39,465 nucleotides of DNA from a virus. The number at the start of each line of letters is the position of its first letter. The stretch's first letter is position 1. The position numbers and the translations under genes are program-made. The stretch spans positions 1 through 39,465 of IMG/VR virus record IMGVR_UViG_3300041809_000449. One strand, written 5' to 3'. Under the pieces are notes generated by a model. The model was not told where the DNA came from, did not search any database, and saw only the letters and a program-made list of their open reading frames with translations. Below are positions 3,706-30,648 of this stretch, in pieces.

Positions 3706-3722
3706 CTCATCCTCCCGACGTA

Positions 3723-3751
3723 ATCTTACTCCGGTCGGTCGGTCATGTCAA
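3723..3751 (-). promoter_or_regulatory. Early leftward promoter 1 (sigma70 type)
   Basis: Minus strand: TTGACA (3751-3746), 17-base spacer, TAAGAT (3728-3723). The spacer contains GACCGACCGACCGG, shared with promoter 2. It heads the whole leftward operon. Confidence 0.8.
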
Positions 3752-4248
3752 GCACAAATCGACAGATTCCGAGACGATTTTATCCATGCTACTGGAGTAC
3801 TTGGCACGGTTTCTCACATCCTCCCTAGGGACTATTCCTGCCTCAAGGTGAGGTTCGATGGCTCTGGCGTGGGGTATTGTGGCCTTTGGCTAGTGCGTTT
3901 GATGGCAAGCGATCGTGTACGTGCACGTAGGGTTGTCTGTGGTGTAGGCTGGTGGAGGGCAGGTTGTGAGGCGAGCGGGTGTCTGGTAAATCATACACCA
4001 AAGCCAAGGGCTCATGCCCGCGGCAGTCCTGGAGTACACCCCCCCCTGTCGCTGGCCACAGAGCACGGAGCACGGGCCACCCCACGCGCGGGGGTACGCA
4101 TGTACGTAAAAGTAGGTACAACAACCAAAGTCCGTTTTCGGGTATGGCCGACCGATTATTCATGCAGGAAGTCCAATGGAATGACGGATTTTACGGGGGT
4201 TATATGATTCCATTTGACAGTGGAGTGGGAGGGTAGTAAGGTGAGTTT
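3752..4248. other. Divergent regulatory region without genes
   Basis: About 500 bases separate the leftward and rightward operons. I see no convincing gene: the open frames at 3843-4163 and 3979-4236 lack ribosome sites and family features. It holds a perfect palindrome TACGTGCACGTA (3918-3929), an AAATCG/CGATTT inverted repeat near 3756-3781 and a candidate late promoter. It could also hold the packaging start, but nothing diagnostic is visible. Confidence 0.6.
4135..4162 (+). promoter_or_regulatory. Candidate rightward late promoter
   Basis: TTTTCG, 16 bases, TATTCA. The boxes are poor, but the spacer carries GGCCGACCGAT, the core of the motif found in the spacers of the two leftward early promoters and in the same orientation relative to transcription. 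A start near 4169 would leave an 80-base leader before the first late gene. Confidence 0.35.
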
Positions 4249-4629
4249 ATGCCGACATTCATGATCAGGGAGTTTGTGGACGGGAAGATGATCGGGCATC
4301 CGGTCGAGGCGGAGACGGCGGAAGAGGCGGCGGCGAGGTTTGCCGAAGAGCTGCCGGAGCTGCTGGCGAAGGAAGCTGAGGCGAAGGGCAAGGCGTTGCT
4401 GGCGGCGAGCGTGGCTTCCCAGATCGAGGGCCGTCCCCAGCCTGCGAGGAATCCGGCGTTGGACGGGAGGAAGTTCATCAACATCGAGTTCCAGTGCGCG
4501 GCGTGCCTCGAGCCGTTGCAGGCCGAGTTCAGGGATGGGTACCTTCAGATAGCGCCGTGCCCGACGTGCCTGGGGGAGCTGGAGAACATGGTCGCCGCCT
4601 CGAGGCGGTTCCTGGACAGGAAGAAGTAG
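4249..4629 (+). CDS. Zinc-ribbon protein, first late gene, 126 aa
   Basis: ATG preceded by AAGGTGAG. Residues 1-60 are helical and Ala/Glu-rich. Residues about 82-112 hold CAAC and CPTC 22 residues apart, a four-cysteine zinc ribbon. It ends directly before the small terminase (stop TAG then ATG), so it belongs to the packaging block. A role in DNA recognition or late control is possible but not shown. Confidence 0.75.
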   Translation: MPTFMIREFVDGKMIGHPVEAETAEEAAARFAEELPELLAKEAEAKGKALLAASVASQIEGRPQPARNPALDGRKFINIEFQCAACLEPLQAEFRDGYLQIAPCPTCLGELENMVAASRRFLDRKK

Positions 4630-5475
4630 ATGGCGGGACTGACCAAGGAACAGGCGGCCAAGAAGCCGGGGAAGAAGGCTTCCCTCCACACGGAGCCGGT
4701 CCATGACCTCGCCCCGATGGTGGACTGGGAGGAGCAGGAGCGCATCAAGGCATCCCTGAAGGGGAAGTATATTCCCCAGTTCCGCGCCGACGGAGCCCTG
4801 GTCAGGTCTGGATACAACCCTGAACGGGCAGCGGAGCTCTGCATTATGCGCCGGGGAGGGATGAACCTCCGACAGATCGCCGAGAAGTGCGGGACCAACT
4901 ACACCACGATCAAGCGATGGCTCTCGGACTACCCGGAATTCTCCCAGGAATGGGCCGACGCCTACACTGACTACATCACCGACCTGGCCGAGGAGATTCC
5001 CACAATAGCCGAGAACCTCCTCAAGGACCTGAAACGGGATGGGAAGAAGCTGTCGGCCAAGCAGTTCGGGCGGTACATCCGGTCCTGCGAGTTCCTCGCC
5101 CAGCAGGCCCAGTTCGCCGCGAAGCACCGCGCGCCGCAACTGTACGGCGACACTGACGGCGGGATGGAGCTCGTCCTCATCCAGCCGACCATCCCCGAGC
5201 GGAGCGTCACCCAGGATGTTCCCCGGGCCGAGCGGTGGAAGGAGGAGTCGAAGGAGGCCGAGGATGCAGAGGCTGGTGGTGAGGATTCCCCTGGTCCAGA
5301 CGGAGGCGGGGGCGGAGTTCCTGGGGGAACTGGTGGTGAAGGGCCTGGACGGGACGCAGTTCCGGAAGCAGACGCGGTGTCTCGTCCTGAGCGACGCAAC
5401 GCGAAGCGCAATCGTCCTGTACCTGAACACGGTCAACCACTCGAGGATGCGGGAGAAGGACCTCATATCAGTTGA
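4630..5475 (+). CDS. terS: Terminase small subunit (probable)
   Basis: 281 residues. Residues about 60-100 contain a helix-turn-helix (AAELCIMRRGG, LRQIAEKCGTNYTTIKRWL) as in small terminases that bind the packaging site; residues 100-180 are helical (oligomerisation). Position just upstream of the large subunit fits. The last 70 residues are Gly/Pro/Glu-rich and are overprinted by the next gene (5264-5590) in another frame, so the useful protein may end near residue 210. Small terminases are usually 140-200 residues. Confidence 0.75.
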   Translation: MAGLTKEQAAKKPGKKASLHTEPVHDLAPMVDWEEQERIKASLKGKYIPQFRADGALVRSGYNPERAAELCIMRRGGMNLRQIAEKCGTNYTTIKRWLSDYPEFSQEWADAYTDYITDLAEEIPTIAENLLKDLKRDGKKLSAKQFGRYIRSCEFLAQQAQFAAKHRAPQLYGDTDGGMELVLIQPTIPERSVTQDVPRAERWKEESKEAEDAEAGGEDSPGPDGGGGGVPGGTGGEGPGRDAVPEADAVSRPERRNAKRNRPVPEHGQPLEDAGEGPHIS

Positions 5476-5590
5476 CCACATACCGCTCCGCCTCGATAAT
5501 GGGATGAGGTTTGGCGACGTGATCGCCGAGGAGGACTACATGGACAGGATCGCCGGGCTGGAGGCAGCCAATGCCGCGGCCAAGCCGTAA
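5264..5590 (+). CDS. Unknown protein, 108 aa, overlapping the small terminase
   Basis: ATG at 5264 with AAGGAGG 7 bases upstream. The sequence has ordinary protein character (FLGELVVKGLDG, TRCLVLSDATRSAIVLYLN) with a beta-rich core and is more convincing than the Gly/Pro tail read from the same DNA in the terminase frame. The overlap is 212 bases, long for this compact genome. No family recognised. Confidence 0.7.
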   Translation: MQRLVVRIPLVQTEAGAEFLGELVVKGLDGTQFRKQTRCLVLSDATRSAIVLYLNTVNHSRMREKDLISVDHIPLRLDNGMRFGDVIAEEDYMDRIAGLEAANAAAKP

Positions 5591-5711
5591 GGAGCTGGAG
5601 CAGAGGATCAAGGAGCTGGAGGCAGAGATCCTCCAGCTCCGCAAGCAGTGCGACCGGATCGCCGAAATACGCAGGATGGATGGCAGGTTCGGGGGGAGGC
5701 CCCTGGTATGA
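5571..5711 (+). CDS. Small coiled-coil peptide, 46 aa
   Basis: ATG at 5571 overlaps the end of the previous gene; the stop overlaps the next start. Residues 7-33 form a heptad coiled coil (ELEQRIKELEAEILQLRKQ). Coupled starts on both sides support it. Function unknown. Confidence 0.55.
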   Translation: MPRPSRKELEQRIKELEAEILQLRKQCDRIAEIRRMDGRFGGRPLV

Positions 5712-6042: not shown

Positions 6043-7563
6043 ATGCCCGGAGTCCTCCGAAAGGCCTACGAACCCCTCCCCACGATGGTGGGGTTCCACG
6101 CTTCGGATGCCGAGATGCGCTGCCTTGTCGGGCCAGTAGGGTCAGGCAAGACGACCGCGGCCATCATGGAGATAGGCCTCCTCCTTCCCCGCCACATCGC
6201 CAACACCTACGGCGTCACGTCCACCAGGTGGATCGTCGTCAGGAAGACCTACCGCGAGCTCATGGACGCCACCTTCGCCTCATTCCAGGAATGGTTTCCC
6301 TTTGGCGAATGGCACGCGGCTAAGATGACCATGAACTACCGATACCCTCCGAGCGTAGGATGCAACTACGCCCTGGACGTAGAAGTGATGTTCCGGTCCT
6401 GCAATAGGCCCGAGGACATGGAAAAATTCAAGTCGGTCGAGGCCACCGGCTACTGGATCGAGGAGTCCGTAGAAGTCCATGAAGAAATCAAGCGGATGCT
6501 ACGAAACAGAATTGGGCGTTTCCCTCCGAAATCCCCTGTTCGGTTTGGAATCGAGACAACTAATCCTTGTGACGTCGAACACCAGATTTATTGGGAGCAT
6601 GATTGGGTACCTCTTGGCCAAGATCCTAAGACATGCCCCAGGGACATTACGGGACGGATGGTGCCGTGGTCCGTTCCGGGTCCACGTCCTAAGCGTAAGC
6701 CTGTCGCAAAGTTTTTCGGTTGGTGGCAAGAACCCCACGAAAATGACAAGAACCTAAAGCCTGGATACTACGATGATCTTCTACAGGACTATGGCAACAA
6801 TCCCGAGTGGATCAAGATGTTCATCGAAGGGAGGCCCGGTATCCGCGTCCTCGGAAAGGTGGTCTACGGCAACTTCAATGAGTCTCGCCACGTGTCCCGG
6901 GAGTTTCTTGAATCGAACGGCACCCCCCTCTACATGGGCTGGGACAATTCAGGGAACTTCCCCGCTGCCGTGCTCGTGCAGGTCCGCGGACCCCTCTCGG
7001 TCGTGGTCCTCGCCGAGTTTTACTCCGAGCGGGAAGGGATAATCGACTTCACGAAGAAGGTCCTCCAGATGGTCGAGGAGCAGTGCCCCGGGACTCCCAT
7101 CGCGGCCCACTACGGGGACCCTGCCGGAGGCGCCCGGTTCTCGAAGGGAACGGGAGGCCTGACCTCCAATGCCCAGCTCCAGTACGAGGAGTGCGGGATA
7201 ACCATCATTCCCGCCGAGCAGGGCCTCTATGCCCGCATCCAGAGCGTTGACCAGATGCTCGCCCGGAATGACGGGATGCTCATCGACCCCCGCTGCACCC
7301 GCCTCATAAACGGGTTCATCGGAGGCTATGTCTATCCCGAGAAGATCGGGATCGCAGGAGAATTCCTCCAGCAGCCCCTGAAGAACACGTTCTCCCATAT
7401 CCACGACGCCCTCCAGTACCTGTGCTCGAAGCTCTTCTCCGTCAGGAAGCGGCAGGACATGGAGATGGAGATGCGCCAGGTCTACACCCTGGACCAGATA
7501 AGGAAGGACCTTGCGGAAAAGGAAGATGGGGATTACGATGACCCCAAAAGGTGGGGAATGTAG
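6043..7563 (+). CDS. terL: Terminase large subunit
   Basis: 506 residues, the usual length. ATPase domain: Walker A GPVGSGKTT at 30-38, Walker B region YWIEES at 137-142, coupling motif TTNPC at 172-176. C-terminal RNase H-like nuclease: Asp301 in MGWDNSG, GDPAGG at 358-363, Asp455 in HIHDALQYL. It cuts concatemeric DNA and drives it into the prohead through the portal. Codons 146-245 (about 6480-6780) are clearly AT-richer than the flanks, which suggests a recombined patch without loss of motifs. Confidence 0.95.
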   Translation: MPGVLRKAYEPLPTMVGFHASDAEMRCLVGPVGSGKTTAAIMEIGLLLPRHIANTYGVTSTRWIVVRKTYRELMDATFASFQEWFPFGEWHAAKMTMNYRYPPSVGCNYALDVEVMFRSCNRPEDMEKFKSVEATGYWIEESVEVHEEIKRMLRNRIGRFPPKSPVRFGIETTNPCDVEHQIYWEHDWVPLGQDPKTCPRDITGRMVPWSVPGPRPKRKPVAKFFGWWQEPHENDKNLKPGYYDDLLQDYGNNPEWIKMFIEGRPGIRVLGKVVYGNFNESRHVSREFLESNGTPLYMGWDNSGNFPAAVLVQVRGPLSVVVLAEFYSEREGIIDFTKKVLQMVEEQCPGTPIAAHYGDPAGGARFSKGTGGLTSNAQLQYEECGITIIPAEQGLYARIQSVDQMLARNDGMLIDPRCTRLINGFIGGYVYPEKIGIAGEFLQQPLKNTFSHIHDALQYLCSKLFSVRKRQDMEMEMRQVYTLDQIRKDLAEKEDGDYDDPKRWGM

Positions 7564-7592
7564 CTATGTGGTTCAGTCGAAAGGAGAAAACG

Positions 7593-7832
7593 ATGGTACA
7601 GTTCATCAAGACCGCCGAGGAGCGGATCGCCGAAGTGGTCCAGAAGGCCGAGGCCGTGGTCAAGGCCGGGGAGCAGGCCGCCTTCAAGAGGATCGTGGCC
7701 GTTTTCGATGAGGTCGTGGACAGGATCGAGAAGGCCCTCGTGGACGAAGGACTGATGCTCGACCAGGAAGCCGAGGATGCCTTCGCCGTCCTGAAGCACA
7801 AGCTCTCCGACCTCAAGGACAAGATCGTATGA
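7593..7832 (+). CDS. Small helical protein, 79 aa
   Basis: Start chosen at ATG 7593, which has AAAGGAG 7 bases upstream; an ATG at 7566 in the same frame lacks one. The whole protein is amphipathic helix (EERIAEVVQKAEAVVKAGEQ), likely a coiled coil. It is ATGA-coupled to the next gene. Structural or assembly role inferred from position only. Confidence 0.65.
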   Translation: MVQFIKTAEERIAEVVQKAEAVVKAGEQAAFKRIVAVFDEVVDRIEKALVDEGLMLDQEAEDAFAVLKHKLSDLKDKIV

Positions 7833-8170
7833 AGCTGGAGCATTCGATCAACGCCCTCTCCCGGGTATCCTTCTCCACCCGGCAGCTCATCAATCCCGTG
7901 ACCAACGAGCCCACGGGAGTGGTGCAGGACTGCTGGGAGGACATCTCCCATTCCTGCGCCAAGGGCCTCGAGGAGCTCCAGAACCGCCTCGATGCCATCG
8001 ACGAGGCCCTCGCCAAGATCGGCGGCGTGGACAAGATGCTCGCCATCTTCGAGTGGGTAGCCAGGCAGGAAGAGAAGAAGGACCTCAAGCCCCCGAAGGA
8101 TCTTCCCCCCGAAGGCCTCCCCCTTGCCCAGGCCAAAAAGAAGGGCGGACGCCCAAAGAAGGTGGCATGA
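7829..8170 (+). CDS. Unknown protein, 113 aa
   Basis: ATGA overlap with the previous gene and with the next. N-terminal mixed segment with INPVTNEPTG, then a helix, then a Lys/Pro-rich tail (KKKGGRPKK) that resembles an AT-hook-like basic end. No family recognised. Confidence 0.65.
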   Translation: MKLEHSINALSRVSFSTRQLINPVTNEPTGVVQDCWEDISHSCAKGLEELQNRLDAIDEALAKIGGVDKMLAIFEWVARQEEKKDLKPPKDLPPEGLPLAQAKKKGGRPKKVA

Positions 8171-8646
8171 GCGATACCCTGTCCTCCCTTCTCGGGTCGG
8201 CAAGCGCCAAGGACCAACCGGAAAACAATCCTAATATCCGGGCTAAAGTCAAAAAGGTAATGCGGGATGGGAAGTGGACAGGGAAGTGGTTCGTCGAAGG
8301 CGACGGTTCAGGCAAGACGTTCAGTGACGAAGCCAGCGCCTTGGCTCATGCCGTTGCGACTACCAAGGACGCAGACCCCCTCCACGGAGAAGGCCCCATG
8401 ATGACGACCGGAGAATCCGCGATGGACTGGGGAGACGAACACCAGCCCGGCGCCAAGACCCCGAATTCCGAAACCACCCCCGCCAATGCTCCCGAGGGGC
8501 AGGAAAAGCCAGCCTGGGTGATCGAGTCCGAGAAGCGGTCCGGCGTCACCTACGAGTACGATCCGTCCAAGAAGGCGTGGCGCCCGAAGAAGGGCGTTGA
8601 CCGCGCCGCAGCAGCGAAGCAGATGCCCCAAGGAGCCCAGCAGTGA
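8167..8646 (+). CDS. Unknown protein, 159 aa, low-complexity C-terminus
   Basis: ATG at 8167 in ATGA overlap. Residues about 20-60 (KVKKVMRDGKWTGKWFVEGDGSGK) look like a small beta domain with conserved Trp; residues 75-160 are Pro/Glu/Ala-rich and probably disordered, ending in a second WRPKKG motif. It is coupled to the radical SAM gene downstream. No family recognised. Confidence 0.65.
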   Translation: MSDTLSSLLGSASAKDQPENNPNIRAKVKKVMRDGKWTGKWFVEGDGSGKTFSDEASALAHAVATTKDADPLHGEGPMMTTGESAMDWGDEHQPGAKTPNSETTPANAPEGQEKPAWVIESEKRSGVTYEYDPSKKAWRPKKGVDRAAAAKQMPQGAQQ

Positions 8647-9641
8647 AGTTCCCGAAGATGGTGATCGTCGAGGTCACGAACAAGTGCAACCTCCAGTGCA
8701 AGTATTGTCCCACCGTGACCAACAAGGGATATCCTGTCGGGAACATGAGCCTCGGGATGTTCAGGGGAATCGTGGACGCCATCGTGAAGGAGTTCCCCGC
8801 GGACACCCCGGTCTGCAACTGGATGCTCGGCGAGCCCTTCATGAACCCGGACTACCTCGAGATGTGCCGATACCTCTCGGAGAAGAGGCTGTCATTCTAC
8901 GTGACGACCAACCTCACCATCTGGAACGAGGAGCTCGTCCGGTTCCTCCTCTCGGAGGAGTCCACCTGCTACCAGATCATCGTCTCGATGGACGGACTCC
9001 CCTGGACCGACTCCATGAAGCTCGCCCGCCCCGGAACCGACCAGGAAGTCCTGCGGCGGAACATCAGGCACCTGCTCGCCATAAAGGAGACGCTGAAGTC
9101 CACGAAGGATTTCGCCGTGAAGCTGTGCGAGCGGGGCCAGGACTGGGCGGAGAAGGAAGAGTACATCCAGCACTGGCTGAACACCAACGGCGTGGACTAC
9201 GTGTGCATGGGCAAGATCCTCCAGGGGGACAACGAAGCCTCCATGCGGTATGCCCCGTGCCAGTTCTTCGACCGGAATTTCATGGCCTTCAGGTGGGACG
9301 GGAAGCTCGTCCTGTGCGACTACAACGACAAGGCCGTGAACGAGGGCGCCCTCTCCTACGGACAGTACAAGGTAGGCGACAGCCTCCTCGAGCTGTACAA
9401 CAACGAGTTCATCACCATGCTGCGGGAGAACCAGGACAAGGGCATCTTCTTCGAGCCCTGCCGGTCCTGCTCCTATGCCTACACCGGGGCGGGATTCACC
9501 GGGGAAATCCAATTCCGGGCCGACAAGGTGGGGAAGCCCATATACTATTCCCAGGACTACTACAACCAGTTCTTCAGCCTCAAGCTTAAGCGGAAGCCCG
9601 CTACGTTCTATACCGGGACCTCGGAGTCCCAGAAGGAGTGA
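8643..9641 (+). CDS. Radical SAM enzyme with twitch/SPASM-like C-terminus
   Basis: 332 residues. Cys15-x3-Cys19-x2-Cys22 (CNLQCKYC) is the canonical [4Fe-4S]/SAM cluster motif; GEP at 63-65 is the SAM-binding stretch and VSMDG near 113 fits the TIM-barrel. The C-terminal part has Cys206, Cys225, Cys273 and Cys276 in the C...C-D-N...G...L...F...C-x2-C order of a shortened SPASM (twitch) domain that carries an auxiliary Fe-S cluster. Such enzymes modify peptides, proteins or sugars by radical chemistry. It is coupled to its neighbours and sits between packaging and portal genes, where no such enzyme is standard. It is not QueE (wrong cysteine spacing). Substrate unknown. Confidence 0.9.
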   Translation: MKFPKMVIVEVTNKCNLQCKYCPTVTNKGYPVGNMSLGMFRGIVDAIVKEFPADTPVCNWMLGEPFMNPDYLEMCRYLSEKRLSFYVTTNLTIWNEELVRFLLSEESTCYQIIVSMDGLPWTDSMKLARPGTDQEVLRRNIRHLLAIKETLKSTKDFAVKLCERGQDWAEKEEYIQHWLNTNGVDYVCMGKILQGDNEASMRYAPCQFFDRNFMAFRWDGKLVLCDYNDKAVNEGALSYGQYKVGDSLLELYNNEFITMLRENQDKGIFFEPCRSCSYAYTGAGFTGEIQFRADKVGKPIYYSQDYYNQFFSLKLKRKPATFYTGTSESQKE

Positions 9642-9643
9642 TC

Positions 9644-9715
9644 ATGGCGAAGAAGGAAGTGCAGAAGGGGAAGCCGAAGCCGACGCCCAGGAAGCCGGCT
9701 CCGGCGACGAAGTAG
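9644..9715 (+). CDS. Lys/Pro-rich 23-residue peptide
   Basis: ATG two bases after the radical SAM stop, with GAAGGAG just upstream, and a TAG stop one base before the portal ATG. The product is MAKKEVQKGKPKPTPRKPAP followed by ATK. It fills the gap exactly, which supports translation. Either a tiny basic virion peptide or a possible substrate for the adjacent enzyme; neither is shown. Confidence 0.5.
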   Translation: MAKKEVQKGKPKPTPRKPAPATK

Positions 9716-9716
9716 C

Positions 9717-11411
9717 ATGAACCCCCCTGTCGAGTCCGAAACCCACAGGAAGCTCGCGTCGGAAATATCGAAGCGCCAGAAGCGCCTCGAGTCGATACGG
9801 GCGCCGTTCGACAACCTCTACGACGACATCGATGATTATGTCATCGGACGCCGGTCGAACTACGACCTGGGGACAAAGCAGGGGGGCGCTGCCGGAGCCA
9901 AGGCGGGCGCCAAGATCTACGACCAGACTGCCGCCATGGCCCTACAGGACTTCGTGGATGGCTACCAGGGGAACACCGCGGCGCCCACGATCGACTGGTG
10001 GGCTCCCCTGTTCCGTTCCAAGCAGATCATGAAGATGGCCGAGGCAAGGAAGTGGCTGGATGACGTTCGTGAGGCGATTACATCAGAGATCAACAATAGC
10101 AATCTATTCAGTCAACTATCCGAAGCCACCTGGGACCGTGCTACATACGGGTACTCTTCAATCTACGGACCCGAATGGTCCGCCCGCAGGAGTCGCCTCA
10201 TCTACTATCTCCGGCACCCGCGGGAGGTCTTTTTCTCTCTCAATGCTGAAGGCGATCCTGACCTCTGGCACCGGAAGTTCCTGATATCCGGGCGGCAGAT
10301 CATGGACCTCTGGCCAGACGCTCCCCTGAAGGAGACCTTCAGGAACAAGATGGAGAAGGACCCCTACAAGGAATACGTCTGCATCCATGCCATATTCCCC
10401 AGGGAAGAGCGGGACATCACGAAGATCGATTCCGCCAACAAGCCCTATGCCTCGGTCTACCAGCTCGACGCCGAGAAGGTGATCCTCGAGGAGTCCGGGA
10501 TGGACACCGACGAGGTTCCGACCACCGCCCGCTGGAGGCTCACCTCCGAGGCCTATCCACGTTCCGCGGCGATCGACGCCATCTTCGCCGTGATGATGGT
10601 CAACCAGATGTCCCGTTCGGTTCTCCGCGCAGCCCAGCTCCTCGTCGAGCCGCCCATGATCCAGACCGGGACCATGAAGGGCAAGCTGAAGATCGTCCCG
10701 AACGGCATCACGACGATGGATTCCCCCCAGGACAAACTCGAGCCCATCCAGTTCCCCGCCTCCCTCCAGGCGGGGCTTTCCAGCGTGGCGGACACCCGCT
10801 CGGCCCTCGCCGAGATGTTCAAGGCCAAGATATTTTCGATGATGTCCCAGATGACCGCCAAAGTGACGGCCACCCAGGTCCAGGCCATGCAGGGAGAGCA
10901 GGCGACCCTCCTTCAGCCCATCATCACGCGGGACCAGAACGAGAACCTGATTCCCCTCATCAGAAAGACCTTCAAGGTGCTTTCCCGGGCAGGAAGGCTT
11001 CCGCCGCCTCCCCCCTCTCTCATGGAATTCATGCAGACGCCCGTGGACATATCCTTCTCAGGCCCCGTCGCCATGCTCGCCAAGCGGCATCTCCAGATGC
11101 AGGGATTCAACGCCACCATTCCCCAGATTCTCGGCCTCGTGAAGGAGGCTCCCCAACTTGCCATGATGCTTGACCGGCTCGACCCCGATGAGATCTACGA
11201 CTACATCATGCAGACGGGAGGAGCTCCCGCGAAGATCACCCGGGACGAGAAGCAGGTCGCGCAGATCCGGGCGCAGCGGGCGAAGGCCCAGCAGGACCAG
11301 ATGAAGCAGGAAGCCCTGAACAAGACCGCCGACACCCTCCACAAGGGGTCCACCAAACCCGATGAAGGGTCTCCGGCACAAAAGGTGCTTGACGCCCAGG
11401 GAGCGCTGTAA
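9717..11411 (+). CDS. Portal protein (head-tail connector, podovirus type)
   Basis: 564 residues, matching the head-to-tail connecting family of T7/Bcep22-like phages. Recognisable features: N-terminal helix with FDNLYDDIDDYVIGRR, the AALALQ-like stretch near residue 80 (AMALQDFVDGYQG), the core WDRATYGYSSIY, the clip/stem region with VNQMSRSVL, and a Gln/Lys-rich C-terminal helix. It forms the dodecameric DNA channel at one head vertex and binds terminase, ejection proteins and tail tubular A. AT-richer codons at about 10080-10180 suggest local recombination. Confidence 0.93.
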   Translation: MNPPVESETHRKLASEISKRQKRLESIRAPFDNLYDDIDDYVIGRRSNYDLGTKQGGAAGAKAGAKIYDQTAAMALQDFVDGYQGNTAAPTIDWWAPLFRSKQIMKMAEARKWLDDVREAITSEINNSNLFSQLSEATWDRATYGYSSIYGPEWSARRSRLIYYLRHPREVFFSLNAEGDPDLWHRKFLISGRQIMDLWPDAPLKETFRNKMEKDPYKEYVCIHAIFPREERDITKIDSANKPYASVYQLDAEKVILEESGMDTDEVPTTARWRLTSEAYPRSAAIDAIFAVMMVNQMSRSVLRAAQLLVEPPMIQTGTMKGKLKIVPNGITTMDSPQDKLEPIQFPASLQAGLSSVADTRSALAEMFKAKIFSMMSQMTAKVTATQVQAMQGEQATLLQPIITRDQNENLIPLIRKTFKVLSRAGRLPPPPPSLMEFMQTPVDISFSGPVAMLAKRHLQMQGFNATIPQILGLVKEAPQLAMMLDRLDPDEIYDYIMQTGGAPAKITRDEKQVAQIRAQRAKAQQDQMKQEALNKTADTLHKGSTKPDEGSPAQKVLDAQGAL

Positions 11412-29101: not shown

Positions 29102-29607
29102 AATGCCGAACTGGAAATGGATCGTGGGCGCCGTGCTTCTGGCTGGCGTTCTTTCTGTTGGCGGGTTTCTGCTCGGCCGGAGCGCAGGTTCAGCCGACCT
29201 CCGATCAGCCCTCGCCAGGTACGAATCTCTCCGCGCAGCCGATGATGCCCTCCTGGGACGACTTGGAAGCAGCCTCGGCGGAGCTCTCGAGCAAAGCAAG
29301 CGACTTGGTGCCGCAGGTAGTGGACTTGAACAGTCAGCTCGGGAAGTTGCAGTCCTCGCTCTTGGACTGCACGACGCTATTGGCGCAATCGCTAAGTATG
29401 AGAAAGCAAGAGGCTCTGGCGGCCCAGGGCGCGGTGAAGTCAGCCCTCAACCGTAGCCTCTGGTGGCAGCGGTCGGCCCTCGTCGTGGGCGGAGCCTTCG
29501 CGGGATACCTCGCGTACAAATGGCCCGGAAGCGGGTACGGCGCCGCGGCTGGTGCAGCCATCGACGCCGTACTGGAAATCTCGGGAGCGATCAGGATTAA
29601 GCTATAG
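29098..29607 (+). CDS. Secreted/membrane lysis protein, possible outer spanin
   Basis: 169 residues, ATGA-coupled to the holin. N-terminal signal sequence (CFWLAFFLLAGFCSAGAQ) with a Cys at 25 in a near-lipobox, an amphipathic helix in the middle, and a Gly/Ala-rich hydrophobic stretch near the end (ALVVGGAFAGYLAYKW). Its stop CTATAG is shared with the stop of the convergent gene. Confidence 0.6.
   Translation: MKCRTGNGSWAPCFWLAFFLLAGFCSAGAQVQPTSDQPSPGTNLSAQPMMPSWDDLEAASAELSSKASDLVPQVVDLNSQLGKLQSSLLDCTTLLAQSLSMRKQEALAAQGAVKSALNRSLWWQRSALVVGGAFAGYLAYKWPGSGYGAAAGAAIDAVLEISGAIRIKL
29103..29456 (+). CDS. Nested frame: possible inner spanin
   Basis: 117 residues from ATG 29103, wholly inside the previous gene in another frame. 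N-terminal anchor (WIVGAVLLAGVLSVGGFLLG) then a helix with SALARYESLRAADDALLGRL, as in Rz-type inner spanins. Nested spanin pairs are well known, but it has no clear ribosome site of its own. Confidence 0.4.
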   Translation: MPNWKWIVGAVLLAGVLSVGGFLLGRSAGSADLRSALARYESLRAADDALLGRLGSSLGGALEQSKRLGAAGSGLEQSAREVAVLALGLHDAIGAIAKYEKARGSGGPGRGEVSPQP

Positions 29608-30648
29608 CCCGCCCCCCGTCGGATACGGCGCCGTCCAGAAGTCCGCCTTGATGAGCGTCTGCTGGAGCAGGGCCTTGGCCGTTTCCACGTCCGCCTCTTC
29701 CTGTTCGCGCCAGCGGAAATGGCCTATCCCGAACTCGTCCGTCTCGGCGAACATCCCGTAGGCCAGCATCGAGCGGTCGATGGCCTCGATCTGGTCCGGC
29801 CCCGGCCCGTGGATGTCCACCACCTTCAGGATGTCCCCGGGCTGGATGAAGGGGATCTCCGTGCAGGCTCCCTTGTCGCCGACCTGGACCAGGGGGAGCT
29901 TGTACATCTTCCAGAGGCCCAAAAGCAGGTTGGCGTAGAAGAGCGTCTCCTGTGAGGCCGAGGTCTTGCCGGGCGAGGTCTCGCAGTACTGGAGGGGCTT
30001 CGGGTCGAAGATGTACGGGCCGCGCCTGCGATAGTCCTGGGCGCGCGTCCTGCCTTCCGGGAAGCAGTAGTCCACTCCGGCGAGGATGATCGGCCCGAGT
30101 CCCATCCACCGCGCCACGAGACATTGGAGATTATTGACCGAACCGCAGACGGGGAAGCCGACCTTGATCCACGGGTACACGTCCCGGAAGTGGCTGCCGT
30201 CCGCCTCCTTGAGCTCGAAGTACCGCTTGGAGCCGGTCCAGGCATCGAGCGTCTTCGGGCTGATGTAGGGATGAGTGAGGAGGGTCATGCCGTAACAGTC
30301 GCGGTCGGGCCGGATCTGCTCCTCGCCCACGTTGTCCGCAGAGTCTACGGCGACGACGTACTGGGGCGTTATCTCCCATTTCTCCAGTATGTCCAACTGG
30401 GACGGGGAGGCGAAGACGACGCCCTTGAAGCGGTTCACGAAGGGGAGGATGTCGTCCAGGCTCGGGCCTGAGCCAAGGATAAGGGCGGGCACGCTGCCGG
30501 GCTCGAAGCGGGCGAGGGTGTCGATGGAACAGTCGGCCGCCTGGAATTCGGCCTTGATGCGCTGGTAGTTCTCGGCGGCGTTGCGCGCGTACTGGCGCGA
30601 GTGCTCCTTGCCGATCTTCGTGTTGAATTCGCTGAACTGTAGACTCAT
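29602..30648 (-). CDS. Maf/DUF115 (MptE-like) family protein
   Basis: 348 residues. LILGSGPSLDD at 57-66 and VVAVDSAD near 100, then GSVNNLQCLVARWMGL and LAGVDYCFPEG are the signature blocks of the DUF115 Rossmann-like domain, found in archaeal MptE pterin kinases and in Maf proteins that put nonulosonic acid on flagellin. Last gene of the leftward operon, with AAGGAGAG before the ATG. In phages its job is unknown; altering a host surface glycan or nucleotide-type substrate is possible. Confidence 0.8.
   Translation of the reverse strand: MSLQFSEFNTKIGKEHSRQYARNAAENYQRIKAEFQAADCSIDTLARFEPGSVPALILGSGPSLDDILPFVNRFKGVVFASPSQLDILEKWEITPQYVVAVDSADNVGEEQIRPDRDCYGMTLLTHPYISPKTLDAWTGSKRYFELKEADGSHFRDVYPWIKVGFPVCGSVNNLQCLVARWMGLGPIILAGVDYCFPEGRTRAQDYRRRGPYIFDPKPLQYCETSPGKTSASQETLFYANLLLGLWKMYKLPLVQVGDKGACTEIPFIQPGDILKVVDIHGPGPDQIEAIDRSMLAYGMFAETDEFGIGHFRWREQEEADVETAKALLQQTLIKADFWTAPYPTGGGL

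Follow-up and report, generated by a model that had tools for sequence, protein, structure and literature searches.

Why should a phage keep the gene for a radical SAM enzyme in the middle of its head genes, and does that enzyme act on the short peptide encoded next to it, on a protein of the virion or on something that the host supplies? The window, by which we mean the whole stretch of 39,465 nucleotides analysed here (IMG/VR record IMGVR_UViG_3300041809_000449, positions 1 to 39,465), carries in succession on its plus strand a terminase large subunit gene (6043..7563; PF04466; PHROG 2, E 3e-18), genes for a helical small protein of 93 aa (7551..7832), a distant relative of which lies directly upstream of the radical SAM gene in the unrelated phage L031, for a small protein of 113 aa in the interval between terminase and enzyme (7829..8170) and for a small protein of 157 aa (8173..8646), the radical SAM/twitch gene itself (8643..9641; 332 aa, GTG start), a Lys/Pro-rich ORF of 23 aa (MAKKEVQKGKPKPTPRKPAPATK; 9644..9715) and the portal, or head-to-tail connector, gene (9717..11411; PF12236, E = 4e-87). 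The 157-aa protein has a conserved C-terminus, KPxWxxxSEKxxGxxYEWxxxxKxWxPK, and no match in Pfam or PHROG. The GTG start of the enzyme sits in a GTGA overlap with the stop of the 157-aa ORF, its TGA stop occupies 9639-9641, and an AAGGAG ribosome-binding site precedes it (8630..8635, plus strand; duplex -7.7 kcal/mol). This overlap, together with the terminase and portal identities, bears out the claim of a first-pass annotation that the gene lies within the late/head operon and is coupled upstream. Rfam and tRNA scans of the whole window found nothing.

Judged by its motifs, which are intact, ORF 8643-9641 encodes a genuine radical SAM/twitch enzyme. The motif CNLQCKYC (CX3CX2C; Cys 15, 19 and 22; 8685..8708, plus strand) is invariant in the family alignment and is expected to bind the SAM [4Fe-4S] cluster, and four further cysteines (Cys 206, 225, 273 and 276; 9258..9470, plus strand) are expected to hold an auxiliary cluster. 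These form CX13GX4C (206-225) and CX2C (273-276) with no cysteine beyond, in agreement with the twitch class, defined by CX9-15GX4C-gap-CX2C alone; a SPASM motif has this as its first half and continues with CX5CX3C-gap-C (PMC6231123). Of the window ORFs that reach 60 aa, 208 in all, three contain CX3CX2C, and this one alone among them has the twitch pattern too. A Pfam match to Radical_SAM (PF04055, E = 5e-10; 40.2 bits, cut-off 29.5), the CX3CX2C motif and the predicted fold place the protein in the radical SAM superfamily, with SPASM (PF13186, E = 7e-4) scoring 20.3 bits, slightly below its cut-off of 21.5, and comparison with the gene of the related contig L004 (dN 0.12, dS 1.38) indicates purifying selection. 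The Pfam matches and the motif count confirm the earlier claim that CNLQCKYC and four cysteines in twitch order mark a real Fe-S enzyme. NCBIfam matches all fall far under their cut-offs; the best, to the tungsten-cofactor oxidoreductase maturase TIGR04317, reaches 68 bits against a cut-off of 380 and leaves the enzyme outside that family. The twitch domain-containing radical SAM family NF033640 gives a weak partial match with 6/6 members scanned (best E 1.6e-12), but the window enzyme scores 42 bits against a cut-off of 170, with the match confined to residues 61-159. Clustering with queuosine enzymes, which the first-pass annotation had named as a result that would speak against it, was looked for and not seen: a QueE identity was rejected, its only trace being PHROG 2076 (QueE-like), whose match (E = 4e-4) is outscored by those of PHROG 1802 and 14086, and QueE is absent among the listed NCBIfam matches.

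AlphaFold2 with a 45-sequence alignment, which replaced a run with 6 sequences that had given pLDDT 60, predicts the structure at pLDDT 88 and pTM 0.88. The best matches among solved folds are SuiB, BtrN and DesII (Z ~20), then ChlB, CteB, anSME, SkfB, BlsE and MoaA (Z 17), with SpeY at Z 12.6-12.8. BtrN, the butirosin twitch radical SAM dehydrogenase (PDB 4m7t), is the best or joint-best match (Foldseek E 4e-10; VIA Z 20.4; 230 residues), and it resembles the window enzyme in its single-domain size class, in a barrel that begins at the N-terminus and in four twitch cysteines able to fully ligate one auxiliary cluster; in contrast to BtrN, with which it shares 16% identity, the window enzyme is phage-borne and has an extra conserved C-terminal tail (residues 277-325). 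The predicted fold is of the BtrN/SpeY twitch type, but peptide enzymes match equally well; the matches include enzymes that act on sugars, nucleosides and peptides, so the fold speaks for a radical enzyme of the twitch type without pointing to its substrate. According to published analysis, the function of SPASM/twitch enzymes is hard to predict from sequence networks (PMC6231123).

The enzyme belongs to a compact family. Scans of 2.9 million viral contigs, in which the pattern scans were not exhaustive, recovered members 45-84% identical to the window protein plus one of 30%; members have bit scores of 374-568 with the family profile, while the best of the remaining proteins reaches 89. At the C-terminus, the signature CxxC..AYTGxGFxG...F...DYYNxFFS (9459..9578, plus strand) varies little or not at all across 11 phage members and, among all proteins scanned, is restricted to the family. 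In 84,980 species genomes of bacteria and archaea, two scans found no member of the tight family, only distant relatives with ~33% core identity or less, and INPHARED, searched with the window, L032 and L082 enzymes, held no full-length relative, only partial matches at ~30%; within the collections searched, this subfamily is phage-only. The open-licence papers searched report phage radical SAM genes only as auxiliary genes without an assigned role.

Beyond the window lineage, the tight family is present in at least three types of phage. In the unrelated HK97-type siphophages L032 and L033 (portal PF04860) the gene directly follows the portal gene, and in L032 a MannoseP_isomer cupin adjoins it; in L009 it lies in the tail region, in L010 beside replication and terminase genes, and in L031 in the early region. 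All-against-all protein comparison of the carriers returned only the radical SAM enzyme, generic helicase and HNH matches and two small ORFs, and the unrelated carriers L032, L033, G002 and G003 have no candidate substrate protein in common with the window lineage, which makes a host-supplied substrate the simplest reading. A common virion substrate for all carriers was rejected, no head protein being common to the unrelated ones. The two small ORFs are common only to the window lineage (L030 group) and the otherwise unrelated phage L031/G007, and mark gene exchange along with the radical SAM gene: L031 (6156-6422) and G007 (L142; 3414-3662) hold a relative (41%) of the 93-aa protein and an 82-aa ORF that is 77% identical to L030 8066-8311. 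In L033 (5132-6130), homology to the enzyme begins upstream of the first ATG/GTG/TTG (5222), which points to an unusual start codon or a damaged ORF.

Within the window lineage, defined by a PF12236 portal and a GP7-type capsid, the radical SAM gene lies between the gene for the 157-aa protein and the portal gene in every contig that spans the site, amounting to 7/7 distinct genomes (window/L002, L003/L004, L006, L012, L030, L077-L079 and L082). Alleles of the enzyme are exchanged within this slot. The enzymes of window and L030 share only 53% identity, against 90.5% for their terminases and 83.5% for their portals, L030 and L077 are 78% identical in the enzyme and 72% in terminase, the L030 enzyme shares 74% identity with its counterpart in the unrelated phage L031, and L082 holds a divergent 302-residue form, 30-34% identical, with the same C-terminal signature. 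More distant phages, with portals ~26-32% identical, keep the head genes and have no such annotated radical SAM gene; a portal of this kind can thus do without the enzyme. The first-pass annotation had named in advance, as evidence against its proposal, relatives that lack both gene and peptide while the portal is unchanged, and the gene is indeed lacking in these phages. Two lineage members only, L012 (5651-5779) and L082 (the last 42 codons of 5509-5691), have an extra basic ORF of 42 aa directly before the radical SAM gene, with the consensus MPLKSKxQRRxLxATDPKxAxKFEKETPKGKKLPEHxKxKKK.

The Lys/Pro-rich ORF, with its ATG at 9644 and the portal ATG at 9717, is genuine, as had been claimed: it is conserved as MAKKxVQKGKPKPTPKK in the window, L004, L012, L030, L077 and L082, with pooled pN 0.11 against pS 0.66 across the six genomes, and its conservation in five other distinct genomes means that it is not a chance ORF. 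The further claim that it exactly fills the gap to the portal holds but for one base, since the ORF ends at 9715 and position 9716 is spare. Its AAGGAG ribosome-binding site (9633..9638, plus strand; -8.3 kcal/mol), which lies within the 3' end of the enzyme gene, has a strong counterpart in every case (-7.8 to -9.2 kcal/mol), whereas the start site of the portal gene behind the ORF is weak in the window (-2.3) and L012 (-2.2) and intermediate in L077 (-4.6) and L030 (-5.7). In L006 the enzyme abuts the portal with no Lys/Pro ORF, and the portal has its own site (-5.4) within the 3' end of the radical SAM gene. Set against almost none at the portal, the strong site of the ORF argues that it is probably a translational coupler of the portal gene, letting ribosomes that are drawn to it re-start on that gene. 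Conservation of its amino acids suggests that the peptide may also have a function of its own. The peptide could instead serve chiefly as a minor component of the virion or as a DNA-binding protein, a possibility that we do not favour: its composition is basic and the strong purifying selection on residues 2-17 exceeds the needs of a coupler, but it is missing from L006 with no clear replacement, and the portal start site is weak where the peptide is present (window, L012; L077 and L030 being intermediate) and independent where it is absent. A profile of the peptide found no match in L006, none beside the enzyme in unrelated carriers and no other convincing copy in the sequences fetched, and tblastn with the peptide, low-complexity filter applying, returned nothing in phages.

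A proposed functional partner of the enzyme is encoded elsewhere in the window, directly downstream of the DnaB gene, where an ORF on the minus strand (29602..30648) specifies an MptE-like protein with the Maf_flag10 domain PF01973 (76.3 bits, cut-off 34.6). Flagellin nonulosonic-acid transferases have PF01973 as their central Maf domain, which is similar to the sialyltransferase Cst-II (PMC11339370). The family also covers the pterin kinase MptE, the source of its name. The MptE-like proteins belong to no PHROG family and match no INPHARED phage, and the window protein matched no solved structure by sequence. Among carrier records of at least 36 kb, four of five have PF01973 (window, G006, G002 and G007, but not G003 at 36.8 kb), against none of 18 control phage records, mostly picked by their DnaB gene; Fisher's test on 4/5 versus 0/14 gives p = 0.0013 with kinship ignored and effectively two independent lineages behind the 4/5. 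The domain is also found in 4/28 viruses with other radical SAM genes (L035, L036, L037 and L053), in all of which a radical SAM/twitch gene of ~330 aa lies just downstream of the MptE-like gene within a head-gene operon, the pair coming after capsid genes in three; in effect these phages add one group with adjacent genes to the two lineages that have both. These phages resemble the carriers in combining a ~330-aa radical SAM/twitch enzyme with PF01973, but the core of their enzymes is only ~30% identical and lacks the C-terminal signature, and the two genes are adjacent there and separate in the window. Their MptE-like proteins (L035 3979, L036 2734, L037 5496 and L053 5463) are 475-547 aa long and have a methyltransferase-like motif in their consensus (LDYGCG...DVLEHIEP), with sulfotransferase-like and GT9-like ORFs nearby. 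L037 carries a glycosyltransferase family 9 (GT9) gene; sought as a general partner, GT9 was found in 1/10 records searched.

The cellular relatives of the enzyme (up to 89 bits) lie in clusters for surface sugars, next to genes for CMP-sugar synthetases, glycosyltransferases, GDP-mannose dehydratase, DegT and RfbC, contexts confirmed by Pfam for L117 and L086 and partly by eye for L089, L090 and L087; PF01973, looked for near their radical SAM genes, is present somewhere in 3/12 of these genomes. These enzymes of surface-polysaccharide clusters (e.g. L117, L086 and L090) are the nearest cellular relatives in the scan and lie among glycan genes, but their scores do not exceed 89 bits, where members of the phage family reach 374-568, and they have no DYYNxFFS C-terminal signature.

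We therefore tentatively propose, at a probability of roughly 0.4, that the enzyme and the MptE-like protein (29602-30648) work together, the enzyme modifying a sugar or a glycan precursor by radical chemistry. One cluster would cleave SAM, and the 5'-deoxyadenosyl radical would take a hydrogen atom from the substrate, presumably a sugar or glycan precursor; the twitch cluster would accept an electron, making the enzyme an oxidoreductase, as the BtrN-type fold and the four-Cys twitch motif suggest; the Maf-domain protein would act in the same pathway to attach or activate the sugar, and the product of this pathway would end up on a virion protein or on the surface of the host. We favour a sugar because PF01973 co-occurs with the enzyme (4/5 versus 0/18) and adjoins related radical SAM genes in four other phages, because the nearest cellular relatives sit in surface-sugar clusters and a MannoseP_isomer cupin is adjacent in L032, because the fold matches the sugar-alcohol dehydrogenase BtrN (Z 20.4) and also SuiB, DesII and BlsE, because the Maf domain resembles Cst-II (PMC11339370), and because unrelated carriers have no head protein in common, which argues for a host-supplied substrate. 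The proposal is weakened by the lack of PF01973 in G003, by the position of the two genes far apart on opposite strands in the window and G006, by the low likeness of MptE-like proteins between carriers (only ~19-20%, the window/G006 pair excepted), by the equally good fold matches to the peptide enzymes SuiB, CteB and anSME, by the inclusion of a pterin kinase in PF01973 and by the single GT9 among ten records. The first-pass annotation had offered a virion protein or a surface sugar as its alternative substrate, and PF01973 co-occurrence and the glycan-cluster relatives lend the sugar half partial support.

Direct modification of a virion protein (the portal, the capsid or the 157-aa neighbour), for instance by a cross-link or an oxidation with no sugar involved, seems to us unlikely. 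Constant occupancy of the terminase-portal slot (7/7 distinct lineage members), the position directly after the portal in the unrelated siphophages L032 and L033, late-operon coupling and the fold matches to SuiB, CteB and anSME would all suit such a role, but beyond the enzyme itself the window lineage and L032 and L033 share no possible virion substrate, their portals belong to different families (PF12236 versus PF04860), the L031 gene lies in the early region, and distant relatives keep the same head genes without the enzyme. It is also improbable that the substrate is a small molecule of the host from outside glycan metabolism, such as a pterin, nucleotide or cofactor precursor, transformed by MoaA-like chemistry in concert with an MptE-type kinase. 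A host-supplied substrate would fit the unrelated carriers here too, the best NCBIfam match is to a tungsten-cofactor enzyme maturase, PF01973 takes its name from a pterin kinase and MoaA is among the fold matches (Z 17); however, the NCBIfam matches all lie far under cut-off (68 versus 380 bits), the nearest cellular relatives are surrounded by sugar genes and not pterin genes, and the four-Cys twitch is as in BtrN, whereas MoaA leaves a site open (PMC9012708).

That enzyme and Lys/Pro peptide form a RiPP-like enzyme-substrate pair, as the first-pass annotation had suggested, is highly improbable and was rejected, for although the peptide is conserved at the amino-acid level and adjacent in 6/7 distinct lineage members, L006 has the enzyme without the peptide, no unrelated carrier has the peptide beside its enzyme, the peptide is unchanged beside the divergent L082 enzyme (30% identity), it contains no Cys, Trp or Tyr, and the ribosome-binding-site pattern is explained by portal coupling. 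The RiPP maturases SkfB, CteB and SuiB resemble the window enzyme in fold and in combining a radical SAM core with a twitch or SPASM domain, but they have an N-terminal recognition domain and a precursor peptide, whereas the window enzyme starts at the barrel (core from residue ~5 of 332) without a peptide-recognition domain and its link to a peptide is inconstant. The enzyme more likely alters a sugar than the adjacent peptide. The annotation had advised looking for short ORFs after homologues, and these are conserved in six lineage genomes and absent in L006 and the unrelated carriers; a tidy enzyme-plus-peptide picture can thus be overturned by relatives, leaving a small ORF that is real and data that favour translational coupling.

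Lists of phage auxiliary genes often include radical SAM genes to which no pathway is assigned. The subfamily described here has a private C-terminal signature and, in the collections searched, is confined to phages; within one lineage it stays in the same slot even though its alleles are swapped, and a gene of the Maf domain family recurs as its genomic partner. This suggests a testable viral pathway that would combine radical chemistry on a sugar with its transfer, and yields candidate enzymes for new glycan reactions. A broader idea, which we consider doubtful, is that twitch radical SAM enzyme and Maf-domain transferase constitute a two-component phage module that would make a radically modified sugar and attach it to virion or host proteins, the enzyme passing as a cassette between phages that are otherwise unrelated, in the way that an allele selected by receptors or host defences would.

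Two further observations concern other contigs. L009 (G002, IMGVR_UViG_3300033067_002201) encodes at 3711-5530 a protein with the N-terminus MSCSCVTVCACVTDCAKVCSSVCESVGSCSGHW and the C-terminus TTCSFCADCI; the next gene, for a second radical SAM enzyme (447 aa), overlaps its coding sequence by 4 bases and precedes a fibre-like ORF in the tail region. The second enzyme has weak matches, far under cut-off, to ranthipeptide and Cys-rich peptide maturases, and the two genes, of which no second copy was found, are candidates for a Cys-rich substrate and its maturase within a structural operon of a phage. The terminase large subunits of L003 (375-2771) and L004 contain an intein-like insertion of ~300 aa that is missing from the window terminase (6043-7563), and in L003 an HNH-like ORF in another frame (2009-2524) overlaps this insertion.
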